Source: Desulfocapsa sp. (GTDB taxonomy: Bacteria; Desulfobacterota; Desulfobulbia; Desulfobulbales; Desulfocapsaceae). Taken from it: a stretch of 41,515 nucleotides of DNA. The translations under genes and the position numbers were made by a program. The notes under the pieces are model-generated. The model made no database searches. It saw only the letters and a program-made list of their open reading frames with translations, and had not been told where the DNA came from. Of the stretch, positions 5,616-22,841 are shown in pieces; the first letter of the stretch is position 1; every line of letters starts with the position of its first letter. Location of the stretch: contig JAQYVF010000040.1 of the NCBI GenBank assembly GCA_030145625.1, positions 1 to 41,515 of the forward strand, given 5' to 3'.

Positions 5616-6670
5616 CAGACAACTTCAGTGACATTTTCTCTGCCTCCACAAAACCCGTCAAGATCCTGATTATCAAACCCAGTGCCCTGGGCGATATCGT
5701 TCACAGCCTTCCTTTTCTTGCTGCTCTGCACAAACGATACCCAGAGGCGAAGATTCACTGGGTGGTTGCCAAGGGACTGCACACCTTCCTGGAAGGCCAT
5801 CCCTTCATAGAACGTTTATGGATTATGGACAAGGAAAGGTGGAAAAAAATCGGCATGTTCCGGCAGATCATTCCGGAAATGAATGCGTTCAGAAAAGGAC
5901 TCAGAGGTGAACATTTTGACATCTCGGTAGACCTCTCGGGCCTGCTGCGTAGCGGGCTCATTACCTGGGCTGCAGGAGCCAGATACAAACTGGGATTTTC
6001 CGACTCCGATGAAGGAAGCCCTTTCTTTTATACCCACAAAATAGAGGGCGGCGACCAGATCCATGCCATAGACCGCTATCTGAAACTGGCTCGCCTGCTG
6101 GACTGTGACACATCACAGATCGAATACCCCTTTCCTCCTCTACCTGCCATATCAGAGCTTTTAACTTCTCTCCCTGCTGAGTTCTGTATCATGGCGCCTT
6201 CTGCAGGAAAAGAAGCCAATCGCTGGCCAGCCGAACGATTTGGCCAACTTGCAGCAAAGCTTCCACTGCCAACAGTAGTTATCAGCAGTCCTGCCGATAG
6301 TCACATTGTCAGGGAGGTGGTAGCAGCGAGCAACGGCAAGGCCATCAATCTTGCAGGCCAGACAGGCCTCAAAGAACTGGTCTCCCTCACTGCCAAGGCC
6401 CGTTTCTTTATATGTAACGATACCGGCCCCATGCATATTGCCGCTGCCCTGGGCATTCCGGTTTTTGCCCTCTTCGGACCAGCTAACCCGGTCAGAACAG
6501 GCCCATACGGAAAATCTCATACCATCATTCAGGAAACACTTACCTGCAGCCCCTGTTATGCACAAAAGCCATGTACAAAACACAATTGGCGCTGCATGAA
6601 TGATCTGACAATCGAAAAAGTCCTCCGTACCATTCAGGCAGTTAGACTAAAGGGTACCTTGAAAAATTAG
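5612..6670 (+). CDS. Family 9 glycosyltransferase (LPS heptosyltransferase-like); 3' end supplied by a repeat element
   Basis: A 352-residue GT9 enzyme that probably adds heptose to the LPS inner core. The N-terminus reads KILIIKPSALGDIVHSLPFL, the classic heptosyltransferase start; SAGKEANRWPAERF and NDTGPMHIAAALGIP with a following FGPANP are donor-site motifs of the family. A Cys cluster (CSPCYAQKPC) near the C-terminus is also common in GT9. The last five residues (GTLKN) and the stop codon are encoded by repeat copy A, which begins at 6652. Removing the element and one TAAA copy restores a frame ending LKTEE plus TGA. The gene overlaps the preceding GT4 gene by 4 nt. Confidence 0.87.
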   Translation: MTDNFSDIFSASTKPVKILIIKPSALGDIVHSLPFLAALHKRYPEAKIHWVVAKGLHTFLEGHPFIERLWIMDKERWKKIGMFRQIIPEMNAFRKGLRGEHFDISVDLSGLLRSGLITWAAGARYKLGFSDSDEGSPFFYTHKIEGGDQIHAIDRYLKLARLLDCDTSQIEYPFPPLPAISELLTSLPAEFCIMAPSAGKEANRWPAERFGQLAAKLPLPTVVISSPADSHIVREVVAASNGKAINLAGQTGLKELVSLTAKARFFICNDTGPMHIAAALGIPVFALFGPANPVRTGPYGKSHTIIQETLTCSPCYAQKPCTKHNWRCMNDLTIEKVLRTIQAVRLKGTLKN

Positions 6671-6817
6671 AATTTTCGTTCAAAATCGAGGCACGAGAAA
6701 TTTTACCGCAGGTGCCCTGCAAGAAATGCCCTTGGGGTGCATATAGTTGATATTCCGAGGATAAAATTTTTCTCATAACGAAGAGTTTGGGCGAAAAGGC
6801 AATTTTGCAAGGTGGCC
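6652..6817 (+). mobile_element. MITE-like repeat, copy A (166 bp, 4-bp TAAA duplication)
   Basis: The element starts GGGTACCTTG and ends CAAGGTGGCC. The ends are imperfect inverted repeats: reading inward, GGGTACCTTGAAAAATT pairs with GGCCACCTTGCAAAATT, with weaker complementarity continuing for roughly 60 bp each side. TAAA flanks it directly on both sides (6648-6651 and 6818-6821). It contains no plausible gene. Copies B and C are the same family in the opposite orientation. This copy is 21 bp shorter in the centre and has a few smaller differences. It is inserted in the final codons of the heptosyltransferase-like gene. Confidence 0.85.
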
Positions 6818-6931
6818 TAAAGACGGAAGAGTGAAAAAAATAAGAACAGCTTGCTGAGAAAACACGTATCATCTTCTCCTTCAGCCTTCAACCTGTTCAC
6901 CTCACCCATAACCTTTACCCCACTCTGACTT

Positions 6932-7720
6932 GTGCGTACATCACTGATCATCACTACCTACAACTGGAAAGAAGCCCTGGAGCTATCGATTCGCTCTGTC
7001 TTCAAACAGATCCTCCTTCCATCTGAAATCATCATTGCCGACGACGGTTCCAATTCCGAGACACGACAAGTTATCAAATCTTTACAGAAAAATTCTCCTG
7101 TCAGCATTGTACATTCATGGCAGCAAGACAAGGGATTTCGCCTTTCAAGGAGCAGAAACAAAGCACTATCCATTGCTCAAGGAGACTATATTATTCTCAT
7201 TGACGGAGATATCCTGATAGAAGAAAATTTCATTGATGATCACATCAAAGCTGCCCGAGAAAATTTCTTTATTCAAGGATCCCGAGTCCTGCTCAACGCC
7301 GCAACAACCAGCAAGGCCATTGCCAGAAATGAACTCTGCTTCTGTTTGACTGATCCAGGAGTGGAAAATAGAAAAAACTGTATTCGTTCAAACATCCTCT
7401 CCAAACTCTTCAGTTTTTCCAGTAAACGCCTCAGTGGCATCAAGACATGCAATTTTGCCTTCTGGCGAAAACATGCCGAAGCGATCAACGGTTTCAATGA
7501 GGATTTTGTTGGTTGGGGGCGAGAAGACTCTGAATTTACGGCAAGGATGCTGAACTATGGGGTAAAAAGACAAAACTTGAAATTCAAAGGAGTTGCCTAT
7601 CACCTCCACCACAAGATCAACTCACGTCAACACCTGGCAAACAATGATAAAATTCTTGCCAACACCCTGCAGAAGAAACTGACCTGGTGCGAAAACGGAC
7701 TCTCACAACATAAAGGTTAA
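6932..7720 (+). CDS. Family 2 glycosyltransferase with C-terminal galactosyltransferase-type domain
   Basis: A 262-residue GT-A enzyme starting at GTG. It has the SLIITTYNW strand, IIIADDGSNSET, the DxD-type IDGD motif (about residue 90) and the acceptor-side GWGREDSEF motif (about 190-200) seen in the Glyco_transf_7C/galactosyltransferase group. It follows the LPS operon but is separated by repeat copy A and about 110 nt, so it may be transcribed by read-through or from its own promoter. I saw no strong promoter or ribosome binding site in 6822-6931. The convergent gene begins 46 nt downstream. Role in LPS core assembly is inferred from position. Confidence 0.83.
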   Translation: MRTSLIITTYNWKEALELSIRSVFKQILLPSEIIIADDGSNSETRQVIKSLQKNSPVSIVHSWQQDKGFRLSRSRNKALSIAQGDYIILIDGDILIEENFIDDHIKAARENFFIQGSRVLLNAATTSKAIARNELCFCLTDPGVENRKNCIRSNILSKLFSFSSKRLSGIKTCNFAFWRKHAEAINGFNEDFVGWGREDSEFTARMLNYGVKRQNLKFKGVAYHLHHKINSRQHLANNDKILANTLQKKLTWCENGLSQHKG

Positions 7721-7766
7721 GTGTAGAGCAAATGTTAAAACAGAAAGGATGATACTCAGCCGATTC

Positions 7767-8558
7767 TTATTTTCGAGTGAGAGGAGGAGAATCTGGTGGC
7801 GACCAGGAAGAATTCAGTTCGTGCAGTTTGGCATATTTAAAGAAGGTCCCTTCAAAATTTCCCACGGCAATGATAAAACCTGGCCATCCGTCAAGGATGC
7901 CCAGTTTGAGAAAATAGAGTTTACAAAACGACCAGAGTCCACGGCCGAGTGCCTTAGCCATCCCACCTTCTTTTCCCTTATCAGCCAATTTCCTGGCACC
8001 GAGGCTGGAATATTTATTGGCCTTATGGAGCACTTCTTCCAGATCCTTAAACGGAACCTGCCATATGGCGTGTTTGAGATAAGCAGGTGGCTCCGAGGAA
8101 AGAACTTGATAGGCTTCATGAACCATATCCGGCTCAAAGACCAGTTTCCCTTTTTTAAAAAGTTGAGGTTGGCGATAGTCAGGATAAAACCCTGAATGCT
8201 TAATCCAACGTCCCATGAAGAAATTCCTTCGAGGGATATACCAGGCCTCGGTCTTTCCAGGAGCAGCCAGCTTCTGTAAAATCTCATCGCGCACCTTTGG
8301 AGTACAGCGCTCATCTGAATCAAGACTGAAAATCCATTCATGGCTGCAGGCAGCTATGGCCCTGTTGCGCAGATCTCCAAATCCCTGAAAATCGACTTGC
8401 ACAACCCGGGCCCCCATGGACTCGGCAATGACTGCCGTATCATCAGTTGAATGAGAATCAACCACCACAATTTCATCAGCCCAGAGGACAGAGTTGATGG
8501 CATCCTTGATTTTCCAGGCCTCGTTATAAGCAATTATATAGACGCTGATCTTCGTCAT
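7767..8558 (-). CDS. Family 2 glycosyltransferase, WaaE/KdtX-like (LPS core)
   Basis: A 263-residue GT2 enzyme. The N-terminal ISVYIIAYNE, ADEIVVVDSHSTDDT, and SLDSDER (DxD equivalent) plus the acceptor-side WYIPRRNFFMGRWIKHSGFY segment match the lipopolysaccharide core beta-1,4-glucosyltransferase (WaaE/KdtX) group. A C-terminal hydrophobic stretch may contact the membrane. The start overlaps the stop of the upstream PilB-like gene by 4 nt (ATGA on the minus strand), so it is translationally coupled to a pilus/secretion ATPase, although its function points to LPS. It is convergent with the plus-strand GT2 gene, 46 nt apart. Confidence 0.83.
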   Translation of the reverse strand: MTKISVYIIAYNEAWKIKDAINSVLWADEIVVVDSHSTDDTAVIAESMGARVVQVDFQGFGDLRNRAIAACSHEWIFSLDSDERCTPKVRDEILQKLAAPGKTEAWYIPRRNFFMGRWIKHSGFYPDYRQPQLFKKGKLVFEPDMVHEAYQVLSSEPPAYLKHAIWQVPFKDLEEVLHKANKYSSLGARKLADKGKEGGMAKALGRGLWSFCKLYFLKLGILDGWPGFIIAVGNFEGTFFKYAKLHELNSSWSPPDSPPLTRK

Positions 8559-10801
8559 GACCGTTTGGGCGGGTTGCGGCCACTTCCTCCAGCCAGTTTG
8601 ACAATAATCTGGTTGGTCTTATGCAGCCTGGTGGCCATGGTCTTGAAAAGATGAATGGAAACATCAGGGTATTTTGTGATAATTTCGTCTAGCTTACCAC
8701 CCGGATACCGTTTTATGGTGGAACGCCCCATGGAAACAATAGATGCCGTACGCTGTTCACCAGACAAGGCAGCCATCTCACCGAAATACTCACCAGGTTC
8801 CGTCAGTTCAGCGATCTTCTTTCCACCCTTGACAACGGAAAGCCCTCCCCGAATCAATTTGAAGAAATCGATATCCGTATTTCCTTCACGGATAATAGTA
8901 TCTGCATCTTCATAATTTTCCACGTCCGGGTTGATCAGATAGGCGGGCAGACTTTCTTCATGGGCCACTGTTCTACGCAAGGCTTCTTCTACACTGGTTA
9001 CACCCTGACGGACCTTTTCAATAGCTGCCTGACGCAACGGCACCATTCCCTCCTGATGGGCGACCTTACGCAAATGATTTTCCGGAACCTCAGCACTGAT
9101 GGCCTTAGCAACCTCATCAGTCACTTCCATCAACTCGAAAAAACCGACTCGTCCCTTATAGCCCAGACCATTACATTCAGGACATCCTACAGGGCCGTAA
9201 GTGACAACGTAATCAACCTCTTCCTCATCAAAGCCCATACTGAGCAATTCTTTGGGATCACGCTGCTCAGGTTTTTTACATTTCTGGCAGAGCCTGCGAC
9301 CAAGTCGCTGGGAAAGGACCATGCTCACGGAAGAGGCCAGCATAAATGAAGGGATGCCAATATCAATCAGACGTCCGATGGTTGCGGCACTGTCATTGGT
9401 ATGGAGAGTGGAAAAAACAAGATGACCGGTCATGGCAGCCTTAATGGCAATCTCGGCAGTATCCATATCTCGAATCTCACCCACCATGATGATATCAGGA
9501 TCCTGACGCAGGAAGGCCTTCAAAGCGGCAGCAAAGGTCATCCCCACCTCGGAGTGCACATTGACCTGATTGATCCCTTTAAAGTTAAACTCAACCGGAT
9601 CCTCAGCGGTCAGAATCTTAATATCTTCTGAGTTCAAAGAGTTCAACGCGGAATAGAGGGTAACTGTCTTACCGGAACCGGTGGGACCTGTAACCAGGAG
9701 CAAACCCTGAGGACTGTTGAGACAACGTTTCAGAGCCTCATATGTCTCCACTTCAAAACCAAGTTTGGTCAGATCAACATTAAGGGAACTCTTATCCAAA
9801 ATACGAAGGACAACGGATTCTCCGAACAGGGTGGGGAGAGAAGAAACACGAAAATCCACTGACCGATTGCGCCCAAGCCGCATTTTAATTCGACCATCCT
9901 GTGGGATGCGACGTTCGGTGATATCAAGATTTGCCAGGATCTTGAGACGGGCGACCATGGCATTCTTAATGGTTATAGGCAGATTCATGGACTTAAAAAG
10001 TGAACCATCCTTGCGATAGCGCACCTGCATGGACTTCTCATAAGGCTCCACATGGATATCGGAGACCCCATCCTGCACAGCTTTCACAAGAATACCGTTA
10101 ACCAATTTGATAATAGGTGCATCAGAAGCAGCAAACTGATCCCCTCCACTGTCCTCTTCTTCCGATTCTATCTCAAAATCATCGGCGGCTTCGGCCACGA
10201 TACTGCCAAAGTCATCAATTTCAGTGACAGACATCTCTTCATCAAAATCGTCACCAGCGATGCTTAAAAAGCTCTTCGCCTCCTCGGCATCAATTGCGTA
10301 ATACTGCTTATAGGCATCGACCAGATCATCTTCCATGGAGACACAGACGGAAAGATCTTTACCCAGTATCTCCTGAAGCTGTTCCACGGCTTCAGTATCC
10401 GTGGGCTCAGCCATGGTGACCTGCAAGGTATTCCCAGCCAGACGAAGGGGAAAGGCCATGAAACGCTTGGCCACTTCATAGGTCATCAAGGCTACGGCAT
10501 CCTTACTCGGTGGCTCTTTACTGATCTGGACCGGGGTAAAGTTGTGCTGGCGACTGAGAAAGGTATAGATGGTGTCTTTATCGATATAATCGAGCCGACG
10601 TAGAATGGCTCCGAGCCTGCCACCCTTTTCTTTGTGCTCTTTTTTGGCCGTGGCAAGCTGGGCCGGAGTGATATAGCCAGCCTTACTCAACAGCTCTCCG
10701 ACCTTGACCTTTCCTGCACCGGATCGATCTTTTACGGTTCCTTTAAGAGAACTTTTCTTTTTGGATATCGTTTGTTTTACTGCCATATCTGCAGGACACA
10801 T
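8555..10801 (-). CDS. PilB/GspE-type secretion ATPase fused to a C-terminal cyclic-nucleotide-binding domain
   Basis: A 748-residue hexameric ATPase of the type IV pilus/type II secretion family with an unusual tail. Domains in order: N-terminal MshEN/T2SSE_N region (about 35-170), an acidic linker (185-220), the ATPase core with Walker A GPTGSGKT (372-379), Asp box, Walker B-like IIMVGEIRD (437-445) and HTND (467-470), and a zinc tetracysteine (CQKC 505-508, CPEC 540-543). After the usual end near residue 612 comes a cNMP-binding domain (about 620-735) with a phosphate-binding cassette that retains the key Glu and Arg (FGEMAALSGEQRTAS, 673-687). Typical PilB/GspE proteins are about 500-580 residues. 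ATG at 10801 or 10786 could start it; neither has a good ribosome site. Confidence 0.9.
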   Translation of the reverse strand: MCPADMAVKQTISKKKSSLKGTVKDRSGAGKVKVGELLSKAGYITPAQLATAKKEHKEKGGRLGAILRRLDYIDKDTIYTFLSRQHNFTPVQISKEPPSKDAVALMTYEVAKRFMAFPLRLAGNTLQVTMAEPTDTEAVEQLQEILGKDLSVCVSMEDDLVDAYKQYYAIDAEEAKSFLSIAGDDFDEEMSVTEIDDFGSIVAEAADDFEIESEEEDSGGDQFAASDAPIIKLVNGILVKAVQDGVSDIHVEPYEKSMQVRYRKDGSLFKSMNLPITIKNAMVARLKILANLDITERRIPQDGRIKMRLGRNRSVDFRVSSLPTLFGESVVLRILDKSSLNVDLTKLGFEVETYEALKRCLNSPQGLLLVTGPTGSGKTVTLYSALNSLNSEDIKILTAEDPVEFNFKGINQVNVHSEVGMTFAAALKAFLRQDPDIIMVGEIRDMDTAEIAIKAAMTGHLVFSTLHTNDSAATIGRLIDIGIPSFMLASSVSMVLSQRLGRRLCQKCKKPEQRDPKELLSMGFDEEEVDYVVTYGPVGCPECNGLGYKGRVGFFELMEVTDEVAKAISAEVPENHLRKVAHQEGMVPLRQAAIEKVRQGVTSVEEALRRTVAHEESLPAYLINPDVENYEDADTIIREGNTDIDFFKLIRGGLSVVKGGKKIAELTEPGEYFGEMAALSGEQRTASIVSMGRSTIKRYPGGKLDEIITKYPDVSIHLFKTMATRLHKTNQIIVKLAGGSGRNPPKRS

Positions 10802-10881
10802 AGAAAATAGAGAGAATTTATGCTACTGAACACTGTGCTTGGTATAGCTCAACACATACTAACAATACAAGCTTTTTGCTA

Positions 10882-10926
10882 AAAAAACAAACGGGTTAAA
10901 AAAAGACGAACTTTTTTTAACCCGTT
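10882..10926 (-). terminator. Rho-independent terminator of fhs
   Basis: A perfect 16-bp inverted repeat (AACGGGTTAAAAAAAG, 10890-10905; its complement at 10911-10926) with a 5-nt loop. On the minus strand it is followed by a T-rich tract (TGTTTTTTT, ending near 10882). It lies 66 nt after the fhs stop codon and before the PilB-like gene. The upper stem is all A/T, so the folding strength comes mainly from the six GC-containing base pairs at the base. Confidence 0.75.
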
Positions 10927-10992
10927 GTCTGGCAGCTCTCTGTCAATGTGAGATAACCACCTATTATTTACTCTTTTTTTTCAAATATACTA

Positions 10993-12756
10993 TTAGAATA
11001 CTCCTTTCACCTTTCCGGTCTCGACATCCACATCCACCCTGCGATAAGCAGGATCAGATGCCGTACCCGGCATGAGACTGATGGCCCCAGCTACAGGAAC
11101 AACGAATCCGGCGCCTTTATAAGTGAGAATATCACGAATGGGGAGGGTCCAACCCTTAGGAGTCCCTTTCAGGGCAGGATTGTGAGAAAGGGAGAGATGG
11201 GTCTTCACCATACAGGTTCCCATTTCCTTCATATCAGGATCATCAGCAAGGCGCTTCAGTTTGGTCTGGGCCTCTGGGGTGTAAGAAACGCCATCTGCTC
11301 CGTATACCTCTTTGGCGATAAGGTCGATACGTTTCTCAAGAGGATCAGACAGATCATAGAGGAACTTGAAGTCATTGGGCTCTTCACAGGCATCAACAAC
11401 AGCATCTGCAAACTCAAGGGCTCCATCACCACCATGTTCCCAATGACGGGAAAGGGCGACACGGGCACCGGCTGCCTCGCAAATACGACGAACGGCTTTA
11501 ATCTCGTTATCGGTATCGGTGTAGAAGGCATTGATACAGACAACAGGGTTGATGCCTGCCTTCTTAACGGTCCCGATGTGGTGGAGAAGATTCTTGCAAC
11601 CTTCCTCAACCCAGCCAACATTTTCCTTACCATACTCTTCAGGCATAGGCTTGCCGGGGACAGGAATCGGAGCACCGCCGTGACACTTAAGGGCACGAAT
11701 GGTGGCCACGACAACGGCACAGTTAGGCTTGTTGCCTGAGAAACGACACTTGAGGTTCCAGAATTTCTCAAATCCGATATCAGCACCAAATCCGGACTCG
11801 GTAACATTGTAATCGGCAATTTTCAGACCGACACGGTCGGCGATAACAGAAGACTGACCAATGGCGATATTAGCAAAAGGACCGGCATGAACAAGAACGG
11901 GCTGTCCTTCCAGAGTCTGCATAATATTGGGGTTCAGGGCCTGAACCATCCATGCAGTCATGGCACCGTCAACTTCCAAGTCAGCGGTGGTGATCGGCCT
12001 ATCCTGTTTATCATAGGCAACAACAATCTTGCCGATACGACGACGCATATCAGCCAAGTCATTGGCAATCGCGAGAATAGCCATGATCTCTGAGGAAACG
12101 GCAATGGCAAAGGAGGACTGCATAGTAAAGCCGTCCATTTTGCCGCCGATGCCGATGGTGATATTTCTGAGCGCCTGGGCGCAGAAATCCATGATCCAAT
12201 TGAACTCCACCTTTTTGGGGTGAATATCCAGACGTTTCAGGTTCCGCTGGGCAAGCTGCTCATCGGTATAATTGTTCTCATGCTGCATGCGGGAAGTCAG
12301 TGCCACCATACCGAGGTTATGGGCATTCATAATGGCATTGATATCACCGGTCAGGCCGAGGGAAAACTCGGTGAGAGGAATACACTGAGCAAGACCACCA
12401 CCGGCGGCAGATCCCTTGATATTCATGGTCGGTCCGCCGGAAGGCTGACGAATGGCACCGACAACAGACTTGTTCCGTTTCCCAAGGCCCTGTACCAGAC
12501 CCATGGCGCAGGTTGATTTTCCTTCTCCAAGGGGCGTGGGACTGATGGCAGTCACATCGACGTACTTTCCATCAGGTTTATCGCCAAGGCGATTCATGAT
12601 TTTTGTAAAATCCAGCTTTCCGACATAATGTCCGTAAGGGAGCACTTCCTCTTTCTCAAGACCGAGGATATCGCCAAGCTCATACACTGTTTTCATCCGT
12701 GATTCCGCCTCTTGGGCAATCTCCCAGTCGGCGTGTTTTGTTGGATCAAGAACCAT
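10993..12756 (-). CDS. fhs: Formate-tetrahydrofolate ligase
   Basis: A 587-residue cytoplasmic enzyme that makes 10-formyl-THF from formate, THF and ATP, feeding the methyl branch of the reductive acetyl-CoA pathway or one-carbon synthesis. The P-loop-like TPLGEGKST lies near residue 85, followed by [13 protein letters not shown] and the family segments TGDINAI and HAGPFANIA. The full length and intact motifs suggest an active enzyme. The start at 12756 is chosen because AAGGAGAT sits 4 nt upstream; an in-frame TTG at 12777 lies upstream of that ribosome site. It is a single-gene unit with its own promoter (12941-12969), long leader and terminator. Confidence 0.96.
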
Positions 12757-12790
12757 ATTGATCTCCTTTTGCAGCAAGGGTTAGTTTGTT

Positions 12791-12879
12791 AGTGTCCGAA
12801 AAAGATCTATTATCTCCGCAGGTCAAACAGATCGTTATCGACACAAATCCAAAAAGTTTAGACTCCCAGACAGCCTGGG
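12791..12879 (-). promoter_or_regulatory. Structured 5' leader of fhs
   Basis: The fhs transcript would have about 175 untranslated nt. Two foldable parts are visible. One is CCCAG-ACAGC-CTGGG (12865-12879). The other, at 12791-12845, pairs GTGTCG with CGGACAC (one bulge) around an inner GATCT/AGATC pair followed by TTTTT on the minus strand. The second could be a weak attenuator or a ligand-binding fold; I do not recognise a known riboswitch class. Confidence 0.35.
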
Positions 12880-12940
12880 CAGACGACATCAATTCATTTT
12901 CGAATCAACGCCAACCTCTATTTCATCAGAATTGATGATC

Positions 12941-12969
12941 TATATAACTAATTCTTAATAAAGTGTCAA
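12941..12969 (-). promoter_or_regulatory. Sigma-70 promoter of fhs
   Basis: On the minus strand a perfect -35 TTGACA (12964-12969) is separated by exactly 17 bp from a -10 TATATA (12941-12946). Transcription would start near 12934, giving a leader of about 175 nt before the fhs start codon. Confidence 0.72.
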
Positions 12970-12991
12970 TACAGGGAGAAAGGGGTACACA

Positions 12992-13028
12992 AGAAAAAAG
13001 CTCTCATCCCCGAAGGAGATGAGAGCTT
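12992..13028 (-). terminator. Rho-independent terminator of the nifU-nifS-thyX operon
   Basis: A strong 11-bp stem (AAGCTCTCATC at 13018-13028 in minus-strand sense, complement at 12998-13008) closes a short loop containing TTCG. On the minus strand it is followed by TTTTTTC. It starts 27 nt after the thyX stop codon and precedes the fhs promoter. Confidence 0.88.
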
Positions 13029-13054
13029 GTAAAAAAAGAAAACTGGGACAGACT

Positions 13055-13987
13055 TCAGACAAAGACAGCCGGATAACGTTCTTTCATCTCAGCCGCAAGG
13101 GGAATCATGACTTCCCGCATGGAAGGTTCAGCGGCAGGAGTAGTTCGAAGACTGAATATATGTTTCCACTCCACCAGATTACAATAGACGACAATCTCTG
13201 TTTTACAGGAGTTGGGTAACACGGTTCGGGCTGCCTGAGGAGTGGAGGTCTCCAGGAGTTGGAGGTAAATCTGCTCAGTATCTTCCATGGCCTTCTTCCA
13301 GAGCGCATACTCCTCTGTCCCCTCCTGGTAAAACATGGGTTTGATGAAGGTCACCTGGCTACCGAATTTATCTTGACTATAGCGGCAATAACGCTGACTT
13401 TCCTGTAAAAAAGAACAGGGACGATGCCTGACAATTTCATGGGTTACAGCACGATTGACAATAAACTTCACGCCACAGAAACGATGACGAGCCAGCAGAT
13501 GAGCAGGAAGCATTTCCACCTCCTGCAAGTCCACTTTGCTGACCTCAATGCTGTCTCCTATACTCAACCCATGTCCACCATCCCAGACCCCTTCAAAGAG
13601 ATAGGGGTGACCATGCGTTATAAAGCTGACCATAGCCTCCACCGGTGCAATATTGCCTGCCCGCTGATAGAGCTCACGAAAAGAACGAATAGACCCGGTA
13701 ACCAACATCCCATCAGCAACACGATCAACAAAAAAATAAGTGGGTTTCACAAGCAGAAAGGCATCAAACTGCTCAGCAGAGCAGTGAACACGCAGCGTAA
13801 CCACTGCCATCTCCATAACCGAGTTATGCCCATGCTCCGCTATTTTTTTGACAAAGGGCAAAGCCGAGTCTTTGGTGATCTTTTCCTCACTCTTGTAACA
13901 GATCCGACCGCAGGACTCCAGGCGAATTACCAGTGAAGCTTGATCCAATTCGTCCTGAATTTCATAAGAGGGGTCAACAACATGCAT
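13055..13987 (-). CDS. thyX: Flavin-dependent thymidylate synthase ThyX
   Basis: A 310-residue enzyme converting dUMP to dTMP with methylene-THF, FAD and NADPH. The diagnostic RHRx7S motif is present (RHRPCSFLQES), followed by QRYCRYS. The protein is longer than the common 220-260-residue form, with extra sequence in the first half; key motifs are intact. The ATG at 13987 is preferred because GCGGAG lies 5 nt upstream; a longer frame from 14005 would overlap nifS. It lies 2 nt after the nifS stop, last in the nifU-nifS-thyX operon, with a terminator just behind. The Fe-S neighbours have no evident mechanistic link, as ThyX is a flavoprotein. Confidence 0.93.
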   Translation of the reverse strand: MHVVDPSYEIQDELDQASLVIRLESCGRICYKSEEKITKDSALPFVKKIAEHGHNSVMEMAVVTLRVHCSAEQFDAFLLVKPTYFFVDRVADGMLVTGSIRSFRELYQRAGNIAPVEAMVSFITHGHPYLFEGVWDGGHGLSIGDSIEVSKVDLQEVEMLPAHLLARHRFCGVKFIVNRAVTHEIVRHRPCSFLQESQRYCRYSQDKFGSQVTFIKPMFYQEGTEEYALWKKAMEDTEQIYLQLLETSTPQAARTVLPNSCKTEIVVYCNLVEWKHIFSLRTTPAAEPSMREVMIPLAAEMKERYPAVFV

Positions 13988-13989
13988 GA

Positions 13990-15174: not shown

Positions 15175-16010
15175 TATTTGGCCGCCTCCACAATCAGACT
15201 CTCAAGCACCTGTTCCCTCAATTTTTTCTCCACATACTCTTTCAAAGTCGTCTGAGATTTGGCGCAGGAGGTACAAGCTCCACGCAGAGAAACCATGACG
15301 AAATCACCATCCACATCCACCAGTTCAATATCCCCTCCATCCTTGCGAAGAACCGGTTTAATCTCACGCTCCAGCACCGCCTCAATCTTCTTGATCTTCT
15401 GCAGAGTGGTCATCCGTTTTGGCCCCTCGACCTGAACCGGAGTAACAATCCCTTCACTCACAGTTGCCTGCAGAATCTCACGCAACCGATCCTCGCACTT
15501 CCCGCAACCGCCACCTGCCTTGGTAAAATTGGTAATTTCTTCAACCGAACGCAGATTGGATTCTCTGATCGCTCGTATCACCTCAAGATCAGTAACTCCG
15601 AAACACTCGCAGACCACCTCACCCTCGGCCATAGGGAGAATCACTCCACGATAATCGGCAATGGCGGCCTCCAGGGCTTCTCGCCCCATGACAGAACAGT
15701 GCATCTTCTCCTTTGGCAAGCCGCCGAGGTAATCAGCGATATCTTCATTGGTAATCTTCTCGGCTTCGGACACGGTCATTCCAGTGACCATCAAGGTCAA
15801 CGCCGACGAGGAAGCTATTGCAGAGGCACAGCCAAAGGTCTTGAACTTGGCATCGACGATGCGTTCGTCTTTATCAATCTTCAATGTCAGCTTTAGAGCA
15901 TCGCCACAGGCAAGGGAGCCCACATCACCCGTGCCGTCGGGATTCTCAACTTCCCCAACATTATGGGGCTGTAAAAAATGCTGTTGTACCTTATCTGTAT
16001 ATTCCCACAT
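15174..16010 (-). CDS. nifU: Fe-S cluster scaffold NifU (three-domain form)
   Basis: A 278-residue scaffold on which Fe-S clusters are built with sulfur from NifS. Three domains are visible: IscU-like N-terminus (about 1-125) with the three cluster Cys in SLACGDA, FGCASA and MHCSVMG; a central [2Fe-2S] BFD-like domain (about 130-180) with CECFG and GGGCGKC; and a C-terminal Nfu domain (about 195-278) with the CTSC pair. The full three-domain structure matches true NifU rather than IscU. AGGAG lies upstream of the ATG. It is first in the nifU-nifS-thyX operon. In many anaerobes this NifU/NifS pair serves general Fe-S assembly. Confidence 0.94.
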   Translation of the reverse strand: MWEYTDKVQQHFLQPHNVGEVENPDGTGDVGSLACGDALKLTLKIDKDERIVDAKFKTFGCASAIASSSALTLMVTGMTVSEAEKITNEDIADYLGGLPKEKMHCSVMGREALEAAIADYRGVILPMAEGEVVCECFGVTDLEVIRAIRESNLRSVEEITNFTKAGGGCGKCEDRLREILQATVSEGIVTPVQVEGPKRMTTLQKIKKIEAVLEREIKPVLRKDGGDIELVDVDGDFVMVSLRGACTSCAKSQTTLKEYVEKKLREQVLESLIVEAAK

Positions 16011-16048
16011 AATCTCTACTCCTGCTCGATCTCTCTTGTATTAAACCA

Positions 16049-16070
16049 ATCCGGTCTGTGCTCTCCGGAT
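16049..16070 (-). promoter_or_regulatory. Inverted repeat in the nifU leader
   Basis: ATCCGG (16049-16054) and CCGGAT (16065-16070) form a 6-bp inverted repeat with a 10-nt spacer, about 40 nt upstream of the nifU start. It could be a leader hairpin or a regulator site. It does not match the IscR operator pattern I know. A possible promoter (TTGCTT, 16 bp, TAGAAT) lies further upstream on the minus strand. Confidence 0.3.
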
Positions 16071-16190
16071 GACTTGTTGATGAACTTGCTGTAACAAATC
16101 AAATTCTTTGATGAGTAACTATTCACATAGTTTTTCTATTCTAATACCAGAGGGTCAAAAAGCAATGACGATTTCCACAGGAGTGAGAAT

Positions 16191-17927
16191 TTACAAAAGA
16201 CCGATCTCTTCAAGCATAACTCTGGCTGCCTGAACCAGAGCTGCAGTGCCGCTAGCTGTCCGTGACTCCACATAAAAACGTACCTTGGGCTCAGTCCCAG
16301 AAGGCCTGATCATCAACCAGGACCCGTCTTCAAAAATCATCTTCCGACCATCAATTGCAATCACCTGAGCTATAACCTGTTCCCTGTCTCCGACATATAC
16401 TGTACTGCCGACATCATATCTTTCGAGCTTAGACAGTGCACTTGTCAGTTCCTCTCCCTGAGCACTCACCAGCAGACCATCCCTGTCAGGATAATAGGCA
16501 CCAAACTCCTCTTCTATCTCGGCCAGGTAATCGCCCAGGTTCTGCCGACGGCTCAAGACCATATCTAAAGCAAGCAGCAGACCGATGTAAGCATCTTTTT
16601 CAGGAGTATGACCAATGATAGATATGCCATCCGATTCCTCAAAATAGACCAGAGCCTTGCCAATAACGGGTTTAAACTCCTTGAAGCCTACCCGTGGTTC
16701 ATAGGTTTCTTCACCAAAGACATCAGCCAGTCGATTAGCAAGGTTTGAAGTGGCCACGGTTTTTGCAACCATCCCCCTTTTTCCTTTTCCCTCATGAAGA
16801 AAATGATAGGCCATGGCCCCAAACTGATTCATACTGATTTCAGTGGTTCCATCCGTAAATCTGATCCGATCACCGTCAGGATCAATGATGGCACCAAGCT
16901 TAAAAGATTCATTGCGTGAGGCAAGAAAATTGATTACCCCGGCTATATTTACCGATGAAGGCTCAGGGGCAATCCCGTTAAAGGTGGGATCCGCATCGTC
17001 CCGCAATTGAACCAGGCGTTCACTTCCAGCTCCTTCAAAAAGGGATTCAATATGAATCCTGCTTGCCCCATGAACAGAGTCAATAGCCACCACCACTTCA
17101 CTGTCCCCTGCAAATTGAGCCAGAATCTCGTCGTAATTTACCCCATGAACTGAAACATTTTTGCGGACAAGCTGTTTCCAGGTGTTCAAAGCATCAAATG
17201 GCTGCACATCATCACGCACCTCAGGTGACACCACAGGCCTATCCAAGGCAACCAACGGTGAGTTTCCAGCTGTAATGATCTCCCGGGCACGAGCCGTAAT
17301 TCGTTCGGTCAGCTCTGCTGCTGCAGGACCAGCATCTGCTGCGTTGTATTTAAAACCACCATATTCAAGAGGGTTATGGGACGGAGTAAGATTAATCGAG
17401 AATGCAGCATTCAACTCAAGGACGGCGGCGGAAAGAACACCGGTGGTAGACTCCCCGGCATAGTGAACAGTAAAACCTGCACCTCTCAGAACCTCAGTCA
17501 CAGCTCCAGCCAGAATTTCCCCGCCGAAACGATTATCAAACCCCAGCACACATCCTCGCTTTCTGGCCTCGGCCAAACTGGACACTCCAAGAAAAACTGT
17601 CAGTTCAGGCTCATCATCCACACTCATATACAAATCAAGAATTGAGGCGGTGACAAAGGATACGGATCGCAGGAAAAGGTCTTTCCCTAATATTCCGCGC
17701 CAGCCTGAGGTGCCAAATTTCACAGGTGTCTTCGGTTGACTGGAATTGGTTATAATCTCGTCCATTACAAGAGCATATACCTGATCAATAAATCGCTGCC
17801 ACTCAACGCCTTCATCACTACGTAAACGAACCAGCTCCCTAATCAGGGAAAAATAATCGCTTTGGGAGTGGATACTGCCAATGTTGCATTGATGATAGAG
17901 TTCTTTAAATTTTAATGCCTGAGACAT
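16191..17927 (-). CDS. Phosphoglucomutase/phosphomannomutase-family enzyme
   Basis: A 578-residue alpha-D-phosphohexomutase that would interconvert hexose 1- and 6-phosphates. Visible motifs are FGTSGWRG (about 72-79, entry of domain 1), the phosphoserine loop LTPSHNP, the metal-binding loop DPDGDR, the sugar-recognition EESDGIS and the phosphate-binding RPSGTEPKVRFY near the C-terminus. An N-terminal extension of about 65 residues precedes the usual start of the fold and looks helical. GGAAG precedes the ATG. It is a monocistronic gene divergent from the PEP synthase gene. Substrate (glucose or mannose) is undecided; it may supply sugar 1-phosphates for the LPS and EPS clusters in this window. 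Confidence 0.88.
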   Translation of the reverse strand: MSQALKFKELYHQCNIGSIHSQSDYFSLIRELVRLRSDEGVEWQRFIDQVYALVMDEIITNSSQPKTPVKFGTSGWRGILGKDLFLRSVSFVTASILDLYMSVDDEPELTVFLGVSSLAEARKRGCVLGFDNRFGGEILAGAVTEVLRGAGFTVHYAGESTTGVLSAAVLELNAAFSINLTPSHNPLEYGGFKYNAADAGPAAAELTERITARAREIITAGNSPLVALDRPVVSPEVRDDVQPFDALNTWKQLVRKNVSVHGVNYDEILAQFAGDSEVVVAIDSVHGASRIHIESLFEGAGSERLVQLRDDADPTFNGIAPEPSSVNIAGVINFLASRNESFKLGAIIDPDGDRIRFTDGTTEISMNQFGAMAYHFLHEGKGKRGMVAKTVATSNLANRLADVFGEETYEPRVGFKEFKPVIGKALVYFEESDGISIIGHTPEKDAYIGLLLALDMVLSRRQNLGDYLAEIEEEFGAYYPDRDGLLVSAQGEELTSALSKLERYDVGSTVYVGDREQVIAQVIAIDGRKMIFEDGSWLMIRPSGTEPKVRFYVESRTASGTAALVQAARVMLEEIGLL

Positions 17928-18504
17928 ATCTTCCGACCTCTGCTTTCCCCATACTGGAGTTTTTTCAATCTAGCTGAGCAACTATGCTCCTTCAGGATAA
18001 AAAATAATATCATACTTTTCCCTTCTCTTCTACCAATTCATCTCAGACCACTCTTGACAGCATCACAAAAAATATTTTTCTGCTAATTTGTTGCGAATTT
18101 TCTTTCATTACGGCATACTTCATGTATATTTCATTTTTCAAATTCATACATTTTGCACAAAATACTTTTCACAATCTGTTGATACCTACCTAGCCATTCT
18201 AAAATTGAATACCTAACAATTGCACCATATCTTGAAAAATACAATTTTATTCCACATCCTGAAACGTACAAATTTAAATACTTCACATTGACAGAAAATC
18301 GGAATTATTGTTCCAGACAAAGTCTCCCTCTAACACTTGACGAATTGACAATTTTACTTATATAATACTTCAATATTTTTTGAGTCCCTCTTTTCAGGTT
18401 TTTGAGAAGTGGACCATGTTTTTTTATACCTTAATGATTCTAAGACACATTCGAACCTGCGAATCTGTCACCTCAACAATCTAATCCCAGTAGGAGAAAT
18501 AACG
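17928..18504. other. 577-bp A+T-rich intergenic region between divergent genes
   Basis: No open frame of note. It is much richer in A/T than the flanking genes and has several loosely repeated motifs (for example AATACTT and ATACATTT forms). The right part carries the ppsA promoter and leader. A small hairpin ATTCG-AACCTG-CGAAT lies in that leader (about 18449-18464). No tRNA or clear second promoter was seen. Confidence 0.6.
18337..18366 (+). promoter_or_regulatory. Sigma-70 promoter of ppsA
   Basis: A -35 TTGACG (18337-18342) and a perfect -10 TATAAT (18361-18366) are separated by 18 bp. A second TTGACA (18345-18350) is too close to the -10 to pair with it. The transcript would start near 18373, leaving a leader of about 130 nt before the ATG at 18505. 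Confidence 0.65.
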
Positions 18505-20946
18505 ATGGGCAGTAATCACGACAAGGAATTCATTCTATGGTTTGATGATATAGGCATTGATGACGTCCCTCTGGTCGGTGGCAAAAACGCATCACTTGGT
18601 GAGATGTATCAGCATCTTACCGGTAAAGGCGTTGCAGTGCCCCACGGTTTTGCCATCACTGCCTATGCCTACCGTTATCTCCTGAAAGAGGCCGGCATTG
18701 AGGACGAGATCAAACAAGTGCTCTCTGATCTGAATATTGAGGATATGCATAATCTGGCAGAGCGCGGTGAAAAATGCCGAAACATCATCCGCCATGCCCC
18801 GTTCCCCGATGATCTTCGCGATGCCGTTATCGAGGCGTATCAAAAAATGGAAGCCGAGTACGGCGAGAACGTCGATGTAGCAGTACGCTCCTCTGCAACG
18901 GCTGAGGATCTTCCCGACGCCTCTTTTGCCGGACAGCAGGAGACCTATCTGAACATCCACGGTTACGATAATATCATCGAAAACTGTCGGAAATGTTTTG
19001 CTTCCCTCTTTACAAACCGTGCCATCTCCTATCGCCAGCATCAGGGCTATGGCCAGTTTGATGTCTACCTCTCCATTACTATCCAGAAAATGGCCCGTTC
19101 CGACTCTGCCTCTTCCGGTGTCCTCTTCTCCATTGACACCGAATCCGGCTTTGAAGACGCCATCTTTATCACCGGCGCCTGGGGCTTAGGTGAGAACGTG
19201 GTACAGGGTGCAGTCAATCCGGATGAATACTACGTCTTCAAACCCACCCTCAAAGAGGGAAAAAGGCCCATCGTTGGCAAAAAAGTGGGGTCCAAAGAGA
19301 TCAAGATGATCTACGATAATGACCCTGCAACTGAAGAGCCTGTGAAAAATATCAGCACCACCGAAGAAGAACGCAACGCCTACGTCATCAATGATGACGA
19401 GATCCTGCAACTTGCCAAGTGGGCCTGCATCATCGAAGATCATTACGGTAAAGGCATGGATATCGAGTGGGCAAAAGATGGTGACGGCGTCAATGTCGGT
19501 TCCGGCAAGCTCTTCATCGTCCAGGCCCGTCCCGAGACCGTTCACTCCCAAGCCAATAAAGGCGTCATGGAGACTTACAAGCTGCAAGAGAAGGGCGATG
19601 TTATAGTCGAGGGACTGGCAGTGGGTACCAAAATCGGCCAGGGTATTGCCCATTGCATCAACGATGTCAAAGATATCAGCACCTTCAAGAAGGGTGAAGT
19701 CCTGGTCACCGACATGACGGATCCCGACTGGGAACCAATTATGAAGATCGCAGGTGCCATTATCACCAACCGCGGCGGTCGAACCTGTCATGCCGCTATT
19801 ATCTCCCGTGAGCTCGGTATCCCCTGCGTCATTGGAACCGGTGACGGCTCAGAGAAAATCAAAAATGGCCAGGCAATAACCGCATCTTCAGCCGAGGGCG
19901 AGACCGGATATGTCTACGACGGATTGCTTAAGTTTGAGATCGAGAAGGTGGATCTCGGTGACATGCCTGCCACCAAGACCAAAATCATGATGAACCTGGC
20001 CATCCCTGAAAAGGCCTTCACCGAGTGCCAGATCCCCAACGATGGTGTGGGCCTGGCCCGTGAAGAGTTTATTATCAACTCCCACATCGGCCTCCATCCG
20101 CTGGCACTCGTCAACTATGAAGAGCTCAAAACATCCAGCGATCCTGAAAAACAGGAAATTGTCAAACAAATTGACGCTAAAACAGCTGCCTACTCCGACA
20201 AGAAGCAATTCTTCATCGATAAGGTGGCTGAGGGTGTTGGCCGTATTGCTGCCGGCTTTTACCCCAAGGATGTCATTGTCCGTCTCTCTGACTTCAAGAG
20301 TAACGAGTATGCCAATCTAACAGGCGGCACCCTCTACGAGCCCAATGAAGAAAACCCGATGATCGGCTGGCGTGGTGCCTCTCGTTACTACGACCCCAAG
20401 TATCGGCCCGCTTTTGAATTGGAATGTCAGGGATTGCTCAAGGCACGAAACGATATGGGCCTGAACAACATCAAGTTGATGGTACCCTTCTGCCGCACTC
20501 CCGAAGAAGGCAAAAAGGTTATTGAAGTGATGCGCGATTGTGGTCTGGTACAAGGCGAAAACGGCCTGGAACTCTACGTCATGTGTGAGATCCCCAGTAA
20601 CGTTATCTCCGCAGATGCCTTCGCCGACATTTTCGATGGCTTCTCCATCGGCTCCAATGACCTCACCCAGCTCACCTACGGCCTTGACCGTGACTCCGGC
20701 ATCATCGCCGGAATCGCCGACGAGCGTGACGAAGCAGTGAAGGATATGATCCGTATGGTCATCAAAACTGCCAAGCGTCGTGGCAAAAAGATCGGTATCT
20801 GCGGTCAGGGACCATCCGACTTCCCCGAGTTTGCCACCTTCCTGGTAGAACTTGGTATCGACTCCATGTCGCTGATCCCAGACACAGCTATCAAGACCCG
20901 ACTGGCGGTACATGAAAAGGAAAAAGAGATGGGCATAGCTCCCTGA
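18505..20946 (+). CDS. ppsA: Phosphoenolpyruvate synthase
   Basis: An 813-residue enzyme forming PEP from pyruvate and ATP (AMP plus phosphate released), the entry to gluconeogenesis. N-terminal ATP-grasp-like nucleotide domain: LVGGKNASLGEM, VAVRSSATAEDLPDASFAGQ, and VQARPETVHS at its end. The swivelling phosphohistidine domain has GGRTCHAAIISREL (His about 429). The C-terminal PEP/pyruvate barrel has GWRGASRYY, FSIGSNDLTQLT and GICGQGPSD. The ATG at 18505 is chosen because TAGGAGA lies 7 nt upstream; a longer frame from 18409 has no such site and lies in the leader. It is a single-gene unit with its own promoter and terminator. Pyruvate phosphate dikinase is less likely, as its longer insert is missing. 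Confidence 0.94.
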   Translation: MGSNHDKEFILWFDDIGIDDVPLVGGKNASLGEMYQHLTGKGVAVPHGFAITAYAYRYLLKEAGIEDEIKQVLSDLNIEDMHNLAERGEKCRNIIRHAPFPDDLRDAVIEAYQKMEAEYGENVDVAVRSSATAEDLPDASFAGQQETYLNIHGYDNIIENCRKCFASLFTNRAISYRQHQGYGQFDVYLSITIQKMARSDSASSGVLFSIDTESGFEDAIFITGAWGLGENVVQGAVNPDEYYVFKPTLKEGKRPIVGKKVGSKEIKMIYDNDPATEEPVKNISTTEEERNAYVINDDEILQLAKWACIIEDHYGKGMDIEWAKDGDGVNVGSGKLFIVQARPETVHSQANKGVMETYKLQEKGDVIVEGLAVGTKIGQGIAHCINDVKDISTFKKGEVLVTDMTDPDWEPIMKIAGAIITNRGGRTCHAAIISRELGIPCVIGTGDGSEKIKNGQAITASSAEGETGYVYDGLLKFEIEKVDLGDMPATKTKIMMNLAIPEKAFTECQIPNDGVGLAREEFIINSHIGLHPLALVNYEELKTSSDPEKQEIVKQIDAKTAAYSDKKQFFIDKVAEGVGRIAAGFYPKDVIVRLSDFKSNEYANLTGGTLYEPNEENPMIGWRGASRYYDPKYRPAFELECQGLLKARNDMGLNNIKLMVPFCRTPEEGKKVIEVMRDCGLVQGENGLELYVMCEIPSNVISADAFADIFDGFSIGSNDLTQLTYGLDRDSGIIAGIADERDEAVKDMIRMVIKTAKRRGKKIGICGQGPSDFPEFATFLVELGIDSMSLIPDTAIKTRLAVHEKEKEMGIAP

Positions 20947-20978
20947 CCCCCTCCCCCTTTTTAAAAGCTAACAAAAAA

Positions 20979-21011
20979 GCCCGGTTCCTCTTATGGAACC
21001 GGGCTTTTTTT
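20979..21011 (+). terminator. Rho-independent terminator of ppsA
   Basis: GC-rich stem AGCCCGGTTCC with its complement GGAACCGGGCT around a 6-nt loop, followed by seven T on the plus strand. It begins 32 nt after the ppsA stop codon and ends before repeat copy B. Confidence 0.92.
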
Positions 21012-21054
21012 ATGTATTTCTCTTCTCTTACACCTCACTCCCCTCACATCTCAA

Positions 21055-21243
21055 GGCCATCTTATACAATTGCCTTTTCGCCCAAACTCTTCGTTATGAG
21101 GAAAACTTTATCCTCGGAATATCAAATATATGCACCTCAAAGGCACTTGTACCCGTAGTTAGGGTGATTCTTGCAGGGCACATGCGGTAACATTTGCCTC
21201 ATGCCTCAATTTTGAACGAAAATTCTATTTTTTCAAGGTACCC
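21055..21243 (-). mobile_element. MITE-like repeat, copy B (189 bp, 4-bp TCAA duplication)
   Basis: Same family as copies A and C, oriented on the minus strand (GGGTACC end at 21243, GGCC end at 21055). TCAA flanks it on both sides (21051-21054 and 21244-21247). By eye it has about 20 differences from copy C and the same length. The centre carries ACCC/GGGT self-complementary stretches missing from copy A. The GGGTACC end lies inside the last codons of mscS and provides its stop codon. No protein is encoded. Confidence 0.87.
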
Positions 21244-22370
21244 TCAAGAAGGTCCGATTCTGGCTGAGGCAGTTCGTTGACCGTAGATTTCCCCTCACCA
21301 CTCCTAACATAGATATCCCTCTGCGGGAAAGGAATGGAGATATTGTTCTCGTTAAAACATCTATAGATCTCTTTCAACAAAAGATGTGTCTGCCGCCCTC
21401 TTTCCCGTGGATCCCGAACCCAGAGAAGCAGCTGAAAATTGACTGCTGAATCGCCAAAGGAACGGAGCCGCAGTCGCGGGGCAGGCTGCCGCATCACTTG
21501 ATTATTATCAGCCACAACCTGCAGAAGTAACTCTTCCACCTCATCCAGATTTGTTCCATAGGCCACAGCAATATCGAGACGAATGCGAAAATTTGGTTGC
21601 GGCGCTGATTGATTAATAATCTTGGTATTGGCCATGATTGAATTGGGGATGGTGATAAGCACGTCATCTCTGGTCTGTATCTTAGTGGAACGAATCCCCA
21701 CTTCCACCACTTCACCCCGTTCCCCTGAATCAAGAATGATATACTCCCCCACCTTATAGGCACGATCCATAAAAACAGAAATACCTCCAAAAAAATTTGC
21801 CAGGGTATCTTTGGCTGCAAGAGCTATGGCGATACCGGCAATTCCGGCCGAGGCAAAAATAGGGGAAAGATTCACCTTCCAAATGAGAAGGATCCAGACA
21901 ATGGTAAGAAAAAGGATGAGAATCCTGGAAACATTTTTAAAGAGCAGGAAAATATCCCGATCAATATACTTCGCCCCAAAGAGTTCCAGAGTCTCCTCAT
22001 GGGTCAACTTGCTCAGACTGCGAGAAATGGCTCCACACCATAGCAGCAGAATCAGGGTCTTGACTCCGCCCACAAGAATAAAAAAAGAGACCTCAGGGAG
22101 TTTCGGCTCAATCGATGCGGCATGAAGAACACCGAGCATAGCCACAGTAACAAGCAGAGGCCGATGAAAGAAGGCTACGAGGTAATCATCGAGTTGAAAT
22201 CTTGTTTTATGGGCCAAACCTCGTAGGGCTCGAATGACAATCAGATCAATTATCTTGGCCAAGACAAGATAAACAAGGATGATTACCAGCCTCTCAAGCA
22301 CATCATATTCCTGGAACAGGGGGAATTTGGTCAGGTAGGCCTCAAGATGGTCAATAAAAGAAAATTCCAT
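21225..22370 (-). CDS. MscS-family mechanosensitive channel; 3' end supplied by a repeat element
   Basis: A 381-residue small-conductance mechanosensitive channel. About four hydrophobic helices precede the pore helix with its Gly/Ala packing pattern (FASAGIAGIAIALAAKDTLA), then the beta domain (GEYIILDSGERGEVVEVG and TIPNS) and a C-terminal alpha/beta domain. It releases solutes from the cytoplasm when membrane tension rises. The last five residues (GTLKK) and the stop come from repeat copy B. Without the element the frame would read DLLEM followed by TGA. The gene lies 11 nt after a Trm112-like small gene and is probably co-transcribed with it. Confidence 0.92.
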   Translation of the reverse strand: MEFSFIDHLEAYLTKFPLFQEYDVLERLVIILVYLVLAKIIDLIVIRALRGLAHKTRFQLDDYLVAFFHRPLLVTVAMLGVLHAASIEPKLPEVSFFILVGGVKTLILLLWCGAISRSLSKLTHEETLELFGAKYIDRDIFLLFKNVSRILILFLTIVWILLIWKVNLSPIFASAGIAGIAIALAAKDTLANFFGGISVFMDRAYKVGEYIILDSGERGEVVEVGIRSTKIQTRDDVLITIPNSIMANTKIINQSAPQPNFRIRLDIAVAYGTNLDEVEELLLQVVADNNQVMRQPAPRLRLRSFGDSAVNFQLLLWVRDPRERGRQTHLLLKEIYRCFNENNISIPFPQRDIYVRSGEGKSTVNELPQPESDLLEGTLKK

Positions 22371-22381
22371 ATGCTGCGTCG

Positions 22382-22561
22382 TTATTTGCTGGGTTCATCC
22401 AATGGTTTTGCCTCATCCACCAACATCACAGGGATATCATCCCGAATCTCGTAAAGCAGATGACAGGTATTACAAATCAAACCATCACCTGTTTCATTGA
22501 GAAGTACCGGGCCTTTACATTGAGGGCAGGCGAGTATATCCAGCAGTTCCTGATTAACCAT
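22382..22561 (-). CDS. Trm112/YcaR-like small zinc-ribbon protein (59 aa)
   Basis: A 59-residue protein. The sequence has LDILACPQCKGP (Cys12, Cys15), then LICNTCHLLY (Cys30, Cys33), followed by IRDDIPVMLVDEA, which is the Trm112-like (UPF0434) pattern; the IPVML segment is a family hallmark. Such proteins are small partners or chaperones of methyltransferases in some organisms; in bacteria the role is poorly known. AAGGAG lies 8 nt upstream of the ATG at 22561. mscS follows 11 nt downstream. Confidence 0.85.
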   Translation of the reverse strand: MVNQELLDILACPQCKGPVLLNETGDGLICNTCHLLYEIRDDIPVMLVDEAKPLDEPSK

Positions 22562-22644
22562 TCGTTGTTCTCCTTGGGATACTTATTATTCCTAGCATCA
22601 TCTTGTAATCACACTATATAAAGTTGGCAGCTTCTTTCGCTAAA

Positions 22645-22833
22645 GGCCACCATGCAAAATTGCTTTTTCGCCGAAACTCTTCGTTATGATAAAAATTTTA
22701 TCCTCGGAATATCAAATATATGCACCCCAAGGGTACTTGTACCCGTAGTTAGGGTGATTCTTGCAGGGCACCTGCGTTAAAATTTTTCTCATGCCTCGAT
22801 TTTGAACGAAAATTCTAATTTTTCAAGGTACCC
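22645..22833 (-). mobile_element. MITE-like repeat, copy C (189 bp, 4-bp TAAA duplication)
   Basis: Third member of the family, minus orientation (GGGTACC end at 22833, GGCC end at 22645). TAAA flanks it directly on both sides (22641-22644 and 22834-22837). It starts 8 nt after the stop codon of the MORN-repeat gene. The centre holds GGGTAC-AA-GTACCC, a perfect 6-bp hairpin. Together with copy B it brackets the Trm112-like/mscS pair in direct orientation. Confidence 0.87.
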
Positions 22834-22841
22834 TAAAGTAC

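Follow-up and report, generated by a model that had tools for sequence, protein, structure and literature searches.

A family of miniature inverted-repeat elements in Desulfocapsa sp. with IS5-like ends and no partner transposase detected in the assembled genome

The stretch analyzed here (the window) is contig JAQYVF010000040.1 of Desulfocapsa sp., assembly GCA_030145625.1, at its full length of 41,515 nucleotides; it represents one entire contig of a 4.98-Mb genome in 229 contigs. Three similar short repeats, copies A, B, and C (Table 1), are present in the window and raise the question of what kind of element they are and what moved them. Our analysis indicates that they very probably belong to a family of orphan IS5-type miniature inverted-repeat transposable elements (MITEs): a DDE transposase of the IS5 family would mobilize their ends, while the copies of this genome would now be stranded without such a partner.

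Direct reading of the sequence confirmed the positions and ends of the three copies given in the initial annotation, as well as the exact 4-bp direct repeats flanking each of them. In element sense, the left terminus reads GGGTACCTTGAAAAATT, whereas the right terminus reads GGCCACCTTGCAAAATT in the inward direction. The long imperfect terminal inverted repeats, described earlier, were borne out by 53–56 matches per 87 aligned bases in copies A, B, and C with gaps allowed. The copies had also been regarded as non-coding, and the 189-bp consensus contains stops in all six frames. Copy A was identical to copy B at 151 of 166 aligned bases and to copy C at 157 of 166; copies B and C, previously estimated to differ at about 20 of 189 positions, differed in the alignment at exactly 20.

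The family is abundant in the host genome. With copy C as a query, 40 of 232 candidates were scored, and these best 40 all matched over at least 187 of its 189 bases. The pattern GGGTACCTTGNAAAANT, representing the 17-base end, had 369 matches in the genome with up to two mismatches vs. 21 for the reversed control. We estimate the genome total at about 170–240 elements, below 369, because the usual right end also fits the pattern with two mismatches. A catalogue of copies was built from 792 kb of the host genome, mostly around matches, and was cleaned from 112 to 109 entries by removing a false pair of 341 bp along with two duplicate entries. The 109 copies were 65–191 bp in length: 61 of 139–142 bp, 37 of 188–191 bp, 4 of 166–168 bp, and 7 of 65–83 bp. 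Since the copies were located via their ends, the conservation of these ends is partly selected.

Both flanks were available for 107 of the catalogued copies, and an exact 4-bp duplication was found in 83 of them; 5,000 shuffles of the flank pairings gave 7.0 on average and never more than 17. By length, exact duplications flanked 5/7 copies of 65–83 bp, 47/59 of 139–142 bp, 3/4 of 166–168 bp, and 28/37 of 188–191 bp. The 83 sites with exact duplications have a palindromic target preference, ACTWWAGT, with counts of 48, 53, 70, 34 A + 34 T, 33 A + 33 T, 70, 54, and 42 out of 83 along A, C, T, W, W, A, G, and T, respectively. The target T-N-N-A, proposed initially, fits 59 of the 83 duplications; it therefore holds as a preference within this wider motif but not as a rule. 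These duplications also bear on the idea that the copies are REP/REPIN-like palindromes moved by a TnpA-REP (HUH) protein. Palindromic sequence, intergenic location, and high copy number agree with it; however, HUH transposition is not known to leave a target duplication, and the ends of the copies are inverted repeats of the DDE type, so this origin is extremely improbable.

Empty sites were searched for in same-genus relatives with a single query of the three joined window sites, which gave some match in 19 of 20 genomes, the host genome included. Site A was uninterrupted in genomes G002 and G007, site B in G007 and, more loosely, in G011, and site C in G002 and, more loosely, in G009. The empty junctions hold one target copy: TGAA at site A (G002 and G007), TCAA at site B (G007), and TTGA at site C (G002). 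In G011 (site B) and G009 (site C), the junction falls within an alignment gap; therefore, these genomes show only the absence of the element. The orthologous sites of relatives, to which the initial annotation had pointed as a possible source of contrary evidence, were thus empty at A, B, and C, with one target copy each. Duplications together with empty sites at all three window positions show that the element is mobile.

A candidate parent was found among insertion sequences of relatives. Of 29 loci at relatives' PF01609 transposases, only L199 (G002) and L205 (G011), both of the IS5_4 type, had the 17-base end at one mismatch; the other loci had scattered end matches at two to three mismatches or none. 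Locus L199 is frameshifted, 1116 bp in length, and without a duplication, and has both ends, at one and two mismatches; L205 is a fragment with one end. The pieces of L199 scored 142.8 bits (over the cut-off) and 85.3 bits against NF033581 and also matched PF01609/PF05598. A transposase search with one of these pieces gave matches in 21 of 146 genomes (E ≤ 1e-20). An intact transposase of a relative, used as a query, gave matches in 31 of 257 Desulfobulbales genomes (E ≤ 1e-25), many of them fragments, and two intact transposases scored 276.5 and 278 bits against the NF033581 cut-off of 140.

Ten copies of the insertion sequence were analyzed: one each in G044, G110, G120, G075, G040, and G002, and four in G069. 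The length of the candidate parent is about 1.3 kb. Exact 4-bp duplications flanked seven of the ten copies (TATA, TTAA, TTAA, CATC, ATTA, TAAA, and GGAA in element sense). Their left ends agreed with the MITE left end at 15–16 of 17 bases in eight copies and at 13 of 17 in two, and their right ends agreed with the MITE right end at 10–13 of 17 bases in all ten. A full insertion sequence with the same ends had been suggested as a check, and relatives do carry IS5-family ends that are similar, though not identical.

The assembled host genome had no match at E ≤ 0.1 to an intact IS5_4-type transposase, and NF033581 gave there only sub-threshold matches, which lie inside two other transposases. 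Four PF01609 transposases were found in the host: three are of the IS4_1, ISNCY_1, and IS5_1 types, and the fourth is partial and closest to IS4_4, though below the cut-off. In their vicinity, the 17-base end was not seen at up to two mismatches, except for a MITE in L031, located outside the transposase gene. PF07592 (ISAzo13) had no match in the host, a result that is uninformative, as 14 control genomes were also without a match. In the stretches examined, no long element was found between matching ends that could represent an autonomous copy; the 792 kb contained four unpaired left ends and no unpaired right ends (E < 0.001), and an odd end at position 27468 of contig C163 resembles a truncated relic. 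The partner transposase has either been lost from the host or sits in unassembled repeats, which would leave the host copies stranded.

The initial suggestion of a DDE-type transposase supplied elsewhere is supported by the IS5-family ends in relatives, by the duplications at seven of ten insertion sequences, and by a host genome in which such a transposase was not detected. Judging from sequence, mobilization would occur in trans: an IS5-family DDE transposase (NCBIfam IS5_4), encoded by the insertion sequence with very similar termini, would bind both MITE ends (GGGTACCTTGAAAAATT on the left, GGCCACCTTGCAAAATT on the right) and integrate the element at ACTWWAGT-like sites with a stagger of 4 bp. 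The family is short, multi-copy, and devoid of a transposase gene, with inverted-repeat ends, a fixed 4-bp duplication, and both occupied and empty sites, as in MITEs; resemblance of its ends to those of IS5-family insertion sequences, together with an equal duplication length, suggests that it belongs with IS5-derived MITEs.

Several observations weigh against this assignment. No insertion sequence with ends identical to those of the MITE was found, the nearest having 1–2 of 17 mismatches on the left and at least 4 of 17 on the right. By eye, no similarity to the insertion sequences extends past the terminal 17–25 bases or so; because the ends differ and the interiors are unlike, a direct line of descent through internal deletion cannot be seen. 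The ten insertion-sequence copies were selected because their ends could be located, and three of them have no duplication. Among 13 loci with an intact transposase frame, five had a GGG-ended pair and a duplication and eight did not; some of these eight lie at contig ends, and some perhaps have variant ends. In that analysis, the GGG end pair of L253 was retained although another pair ranked above it. The partner search in the host comprised only PF01609, PF07592, NF033581, and two transposase protein queries. Copies without the 4-bp duplication, named in the initial annotation as evidence that would count against it, do exist (24/107) but are a minority, and 16 of them agree at three of four bases.

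The parent could instead belong to another DDE family producing 4-bp duplications, the end match to IS5_4 being convergent. The weaker match of the right ends, the eight of 13 intact loci without such ends, and the partner missing from the host genome search would fit such an origin. On the other hand, left ends at 15–16 of 17 bases in eight of ten insertion sequences, the equal duplication length, and the restriction of the one-mismatch end to the IS5_4-type loci L199 and L205 among the 29 PF01609 loci make it very unlikely, and an IS5-type parent is preferred.

The family is not confined to the host. In the set of relatives, 26 of 36 genomes, with the host counted among them, had matches. 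A broad end pattern of 27 positions, 20 of them fixed, gave at least 79 stretches in genome_contigs. Among the matches listed, the titled ones belonged mainly to Desulfobulbaceae and Desulfocapsaceae, families of Desulfobulbales, with Desulfogranum mediterraneum, Candidatus Desulfobulbus rimicarensis, Desulfofustis, and others as named carriers, and some were titled only Deltaproteobacteria, Proteobacteria, or Pseudomonadota. These matches suggest that the host, too, is a member of Desulfobulbales. Matches in Shiella and Salinicola had no partner end and were chance-like. Paired ends among the matches listed had an exact 4-bp duplication in 47 of 79 pairings (two of which are alternative pairings of one element) vs. 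3.9 expected. Plasmids, phages, and viral contigs had no MITE match, although records very close to the host genome may be excluded from that set. Elements at L101, L075, L086, and L124 (JAHJNL, Old_saline_glass_biofilm.mb.15) were 95–96% identical to the host-genome consensus, and this metagenome-assembled genome may be a near relative of the host.

Several variants of the element were observed in the host genome. The shortest form is a 36-bp hairpin (L189:6897-6932), little more than two ends, with TTAA on both sides; it may have jumped at that size or been shortened later, and little besides the ends therefore seems to be needed. Four forms of 82–83 bp (L175:3455-3537, L173:7157-7238, L057:16034-16116, and L146:1496-1578) seem to have one internal deletion in common, and all four have exact 4-bp duplications, suggesting that the shortened element itself has spread. 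A divergent subfamily of about 140 bp (L047:1333-1472, L057:19211-19352, L058:437-577, and L191:7588-7728) has an inner stem that is built differently and resembles that of the HyVt and rimicarensis elements; its two 141-bp members, in L058 and L191, share 71% identity with the main consensus. Contigs C14 and C188 terminate exactly at element ends (L056 end and L177 start), with identical copies and different flanks; thus, the assembly may break at MITE repeats.

Placement relative to genes was analyzed with the uncleaned catalogue, which still included the false pair and the two double entries. Nine of 102 judged sites were inside a joined-flank open reading frame (ORF) of at least 200 aa vs. 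75% of 1,500 random positions, and MITE copies survive mostly in intergenic DNA. Eight of the nine genic sites were inspected: copies A and B cut the 3' ends of genes, and six resemble start-codon or frame artefacts; the ninth (C14:21348) lies seven bases before a stop. Copy A has displaced the terminal codons of a host gene for a glycosyltransferase of family 9, and copy B those of a gene for an MscS-type channel; the final codons and the stop of both genes lie within the element, whose bases 17–19 provide the new TAG. Between co-oriented genes, the element shared their orientation at 38 of 59 sites, a weak bias. The nearest ORF lay at a median distance of 92 bp on the 3' side vs. 184 bp on the 5' side. 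A strong stem with T-runs on both strands (window positions 20973–21010) adjoins copy B; located between the PPDK-like gene and the MscS gene, it is likely a two-way terminator.

Table 1. Features of the window: MITE copies, their target duplications, and the host genes whose 3' ends they modify.
Feature	Position	Strand	Basis
MITE copy A, 166-bp form	6652..6817	+	Sequence read and alignment; 189-bp form minus 23 bases
MITE copy B, 189-bp form	21055..21243	-	Sequence read and alignment
MITE copy C, 189-bp form	22645..22833	-	Sequence read and alignment
Target duplication TAAA, left of copy A	6648..6651	no strand	Exact
Target duplication TAAA, right of copy A	6818..6821	no strand	Exact
Target duplication TCAA, left of copy B	21051..21054	no strand	Exact
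Target duplication TCAA, right of copy B	21244..21247	no strand	Exact
Target duplication TAAA, left of copy C	22641..22644	no strand	Exact
Target duplication TAAA, right of copy C	22834..22837	no strand	Exact
Host gene, glycosyltransferase family 9	5612..6670	+	ORF, PF01075, joined-flank reading
Host gene, MscS-type channel	21225..22370	-	ORF, PF00924, joined-flank reading

The + strand of the consensus is predicted to fold into one long hairpin of −55.0 kcal/mol (141 bp) or −73.1 kcal/mol (189 bp), vs. −41.1 and −55.9 kcal/mol, respectively, predicted for the opposite strand. The + strand was the more stable one in every own copy of both main length classes (52/52 and 30/30), as well as in 33 of 34 elements chosen from the 79 genome_contigs pairings listed. 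This stable hairpin with its stronger + strand, as well as the intergenic placement and the shorter distance to an ORF on the 3' side, would also be consistent with a host-beneficial structured RNA or regulatory repeat, likewise mobile, whose transcribed hairpin acts on mRNA ends; some ERIC copies have been proposed to be both host-beneficial and mobile.

Covariation between genera agrees with such a function as well. It was analyzed in an alignment of 26 rows (three own and 23 of the 34 chosen named elements), in which 95.4% of cells pair; the rows are related, and the structure was predicted from the same alignment. Two-sided changes were found in 78 cells, whereas shuffling gave 26 and sliding the partner gave no more than 31; the covariation score was 0.283 vs. 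0.137. The number of pairs with a double change (11 vs. 9.1) was unexceptional, as 60 of 500 shuffles reached 11. There were 72 G-U cells vs. 12 A-C cells, with 41 of the 72 located in two pairs and the structure predicted on the + strand. Double changes were confined to the inner helices, with none in the outer helix.

Within the host genome, the 141-bp class had 23 double changes vs. 7.75 expected, 19 of them compensated and partly common to subfamilies, and the 189-bp class had 6 vs. 6.2 expected, all compensated. Single-sided stem transitions in own copies yielded G-U and A-C about equally (48:40 and 39:49), and stems were hardly less diverged than loops (3.8% vs. 4.3% and 4.7% vs. 5.3%), which does not support selection acting on individual hairpins: once inserted, copies appear to undergo neutral decay. 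These data, the orthologous sites of relatives without copies, and the absence of any Rfam match at gathering level within the window make a host function quite unlikely. A role as an intrinsic terminator was not supported either: only short matches were found inside copies B and C, and no T-run follows the long stem.

Paired changes across genera along with neutral decay in the genome suggest that it is the mobile lineage that is constrained, and not that the host draws a function from the hairpin. Any constraint would act on the lineage that is still jumping; alternatively, the arms may have been homogenized by template switching. Cross-genus covariation of the inner stem, the more stable + strand in 33 of 34 elements, and neutral decay after insertion could mean that selection on the jumping lineage favored folding of one strand with a fixed polarity, either as RNA or as a DNA intermediate of transposition, the IS5-type MITE using its structured strand for mobility or control, but we consider this rather doubtful.

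In the open-licence literature searched, we found no report of MITEs in Desulfobulbaceae or Desulfobulbales; within this literature, the family, its likely parent, its target, and its orphan state are new. An IS5-type insertion sequence can thereby be named as the likely parent of a repeat that is very abundant in an environmental order, and the apparently stranded copies suggest that a MITE can outlast its transposase. Cross-genus covariation set against neutral decay within a genome offers a testable separation of selection for mobility from host function, a question that recurs for ERIC- and Correia-like repeats. In addition, assemblies may break at the copies, and neighboring genes may have their ends altered by them.

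The family can be compared with known systems as these are described in excerpts of the cited articles. BrickBuilt of Porphyromonas gingivalis is a MITE with IS5-type ends, 19 copies, and uneven duplication length (PMC4596501). Like the present family, it has IS5-family-like ends, short duplications, and no internal transposase remnant; its host, however, carries the insertion sequences, whereas the transposase was not found in the genome analyzed here, which contains well over 100 copies with a uniform duplication of 4 bp. The target of Escherichia coli IS5 is YTAR (PMC10359306), as compared with ACTWWAGT here. MITECca01 of Cardinium, with 169 mostly intergenic copies (PMC9769881), derives from IS982 and has intact parents in the same genome, in contrast to the IS5-type family here, for which no partner was found. 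Chunjie of Geobacter uraniireducens, known from one species with 38 full and 57 partial copies (reviewed in PMC10969869), is similar in its size variation (178–235 bp), conserved terminal and direct repeats, and mostly intergenic location; the present family, likened to it by description only, is order-wide and has more copies. Repeat families folding into a common structure are frequent (57/92; PMC2267715). ERIC, a repeat of 127–140 bp with 30 to 711 copies per genome, is predicted to form a single long stem-loop (PMC10969869). The likeness of ERIC and Correia to the present family is one of shape only. ERIC and Correia repeats are associated with a 2-bp TA duplication. The family described here has a 4-bp duplication and a candidate parent.

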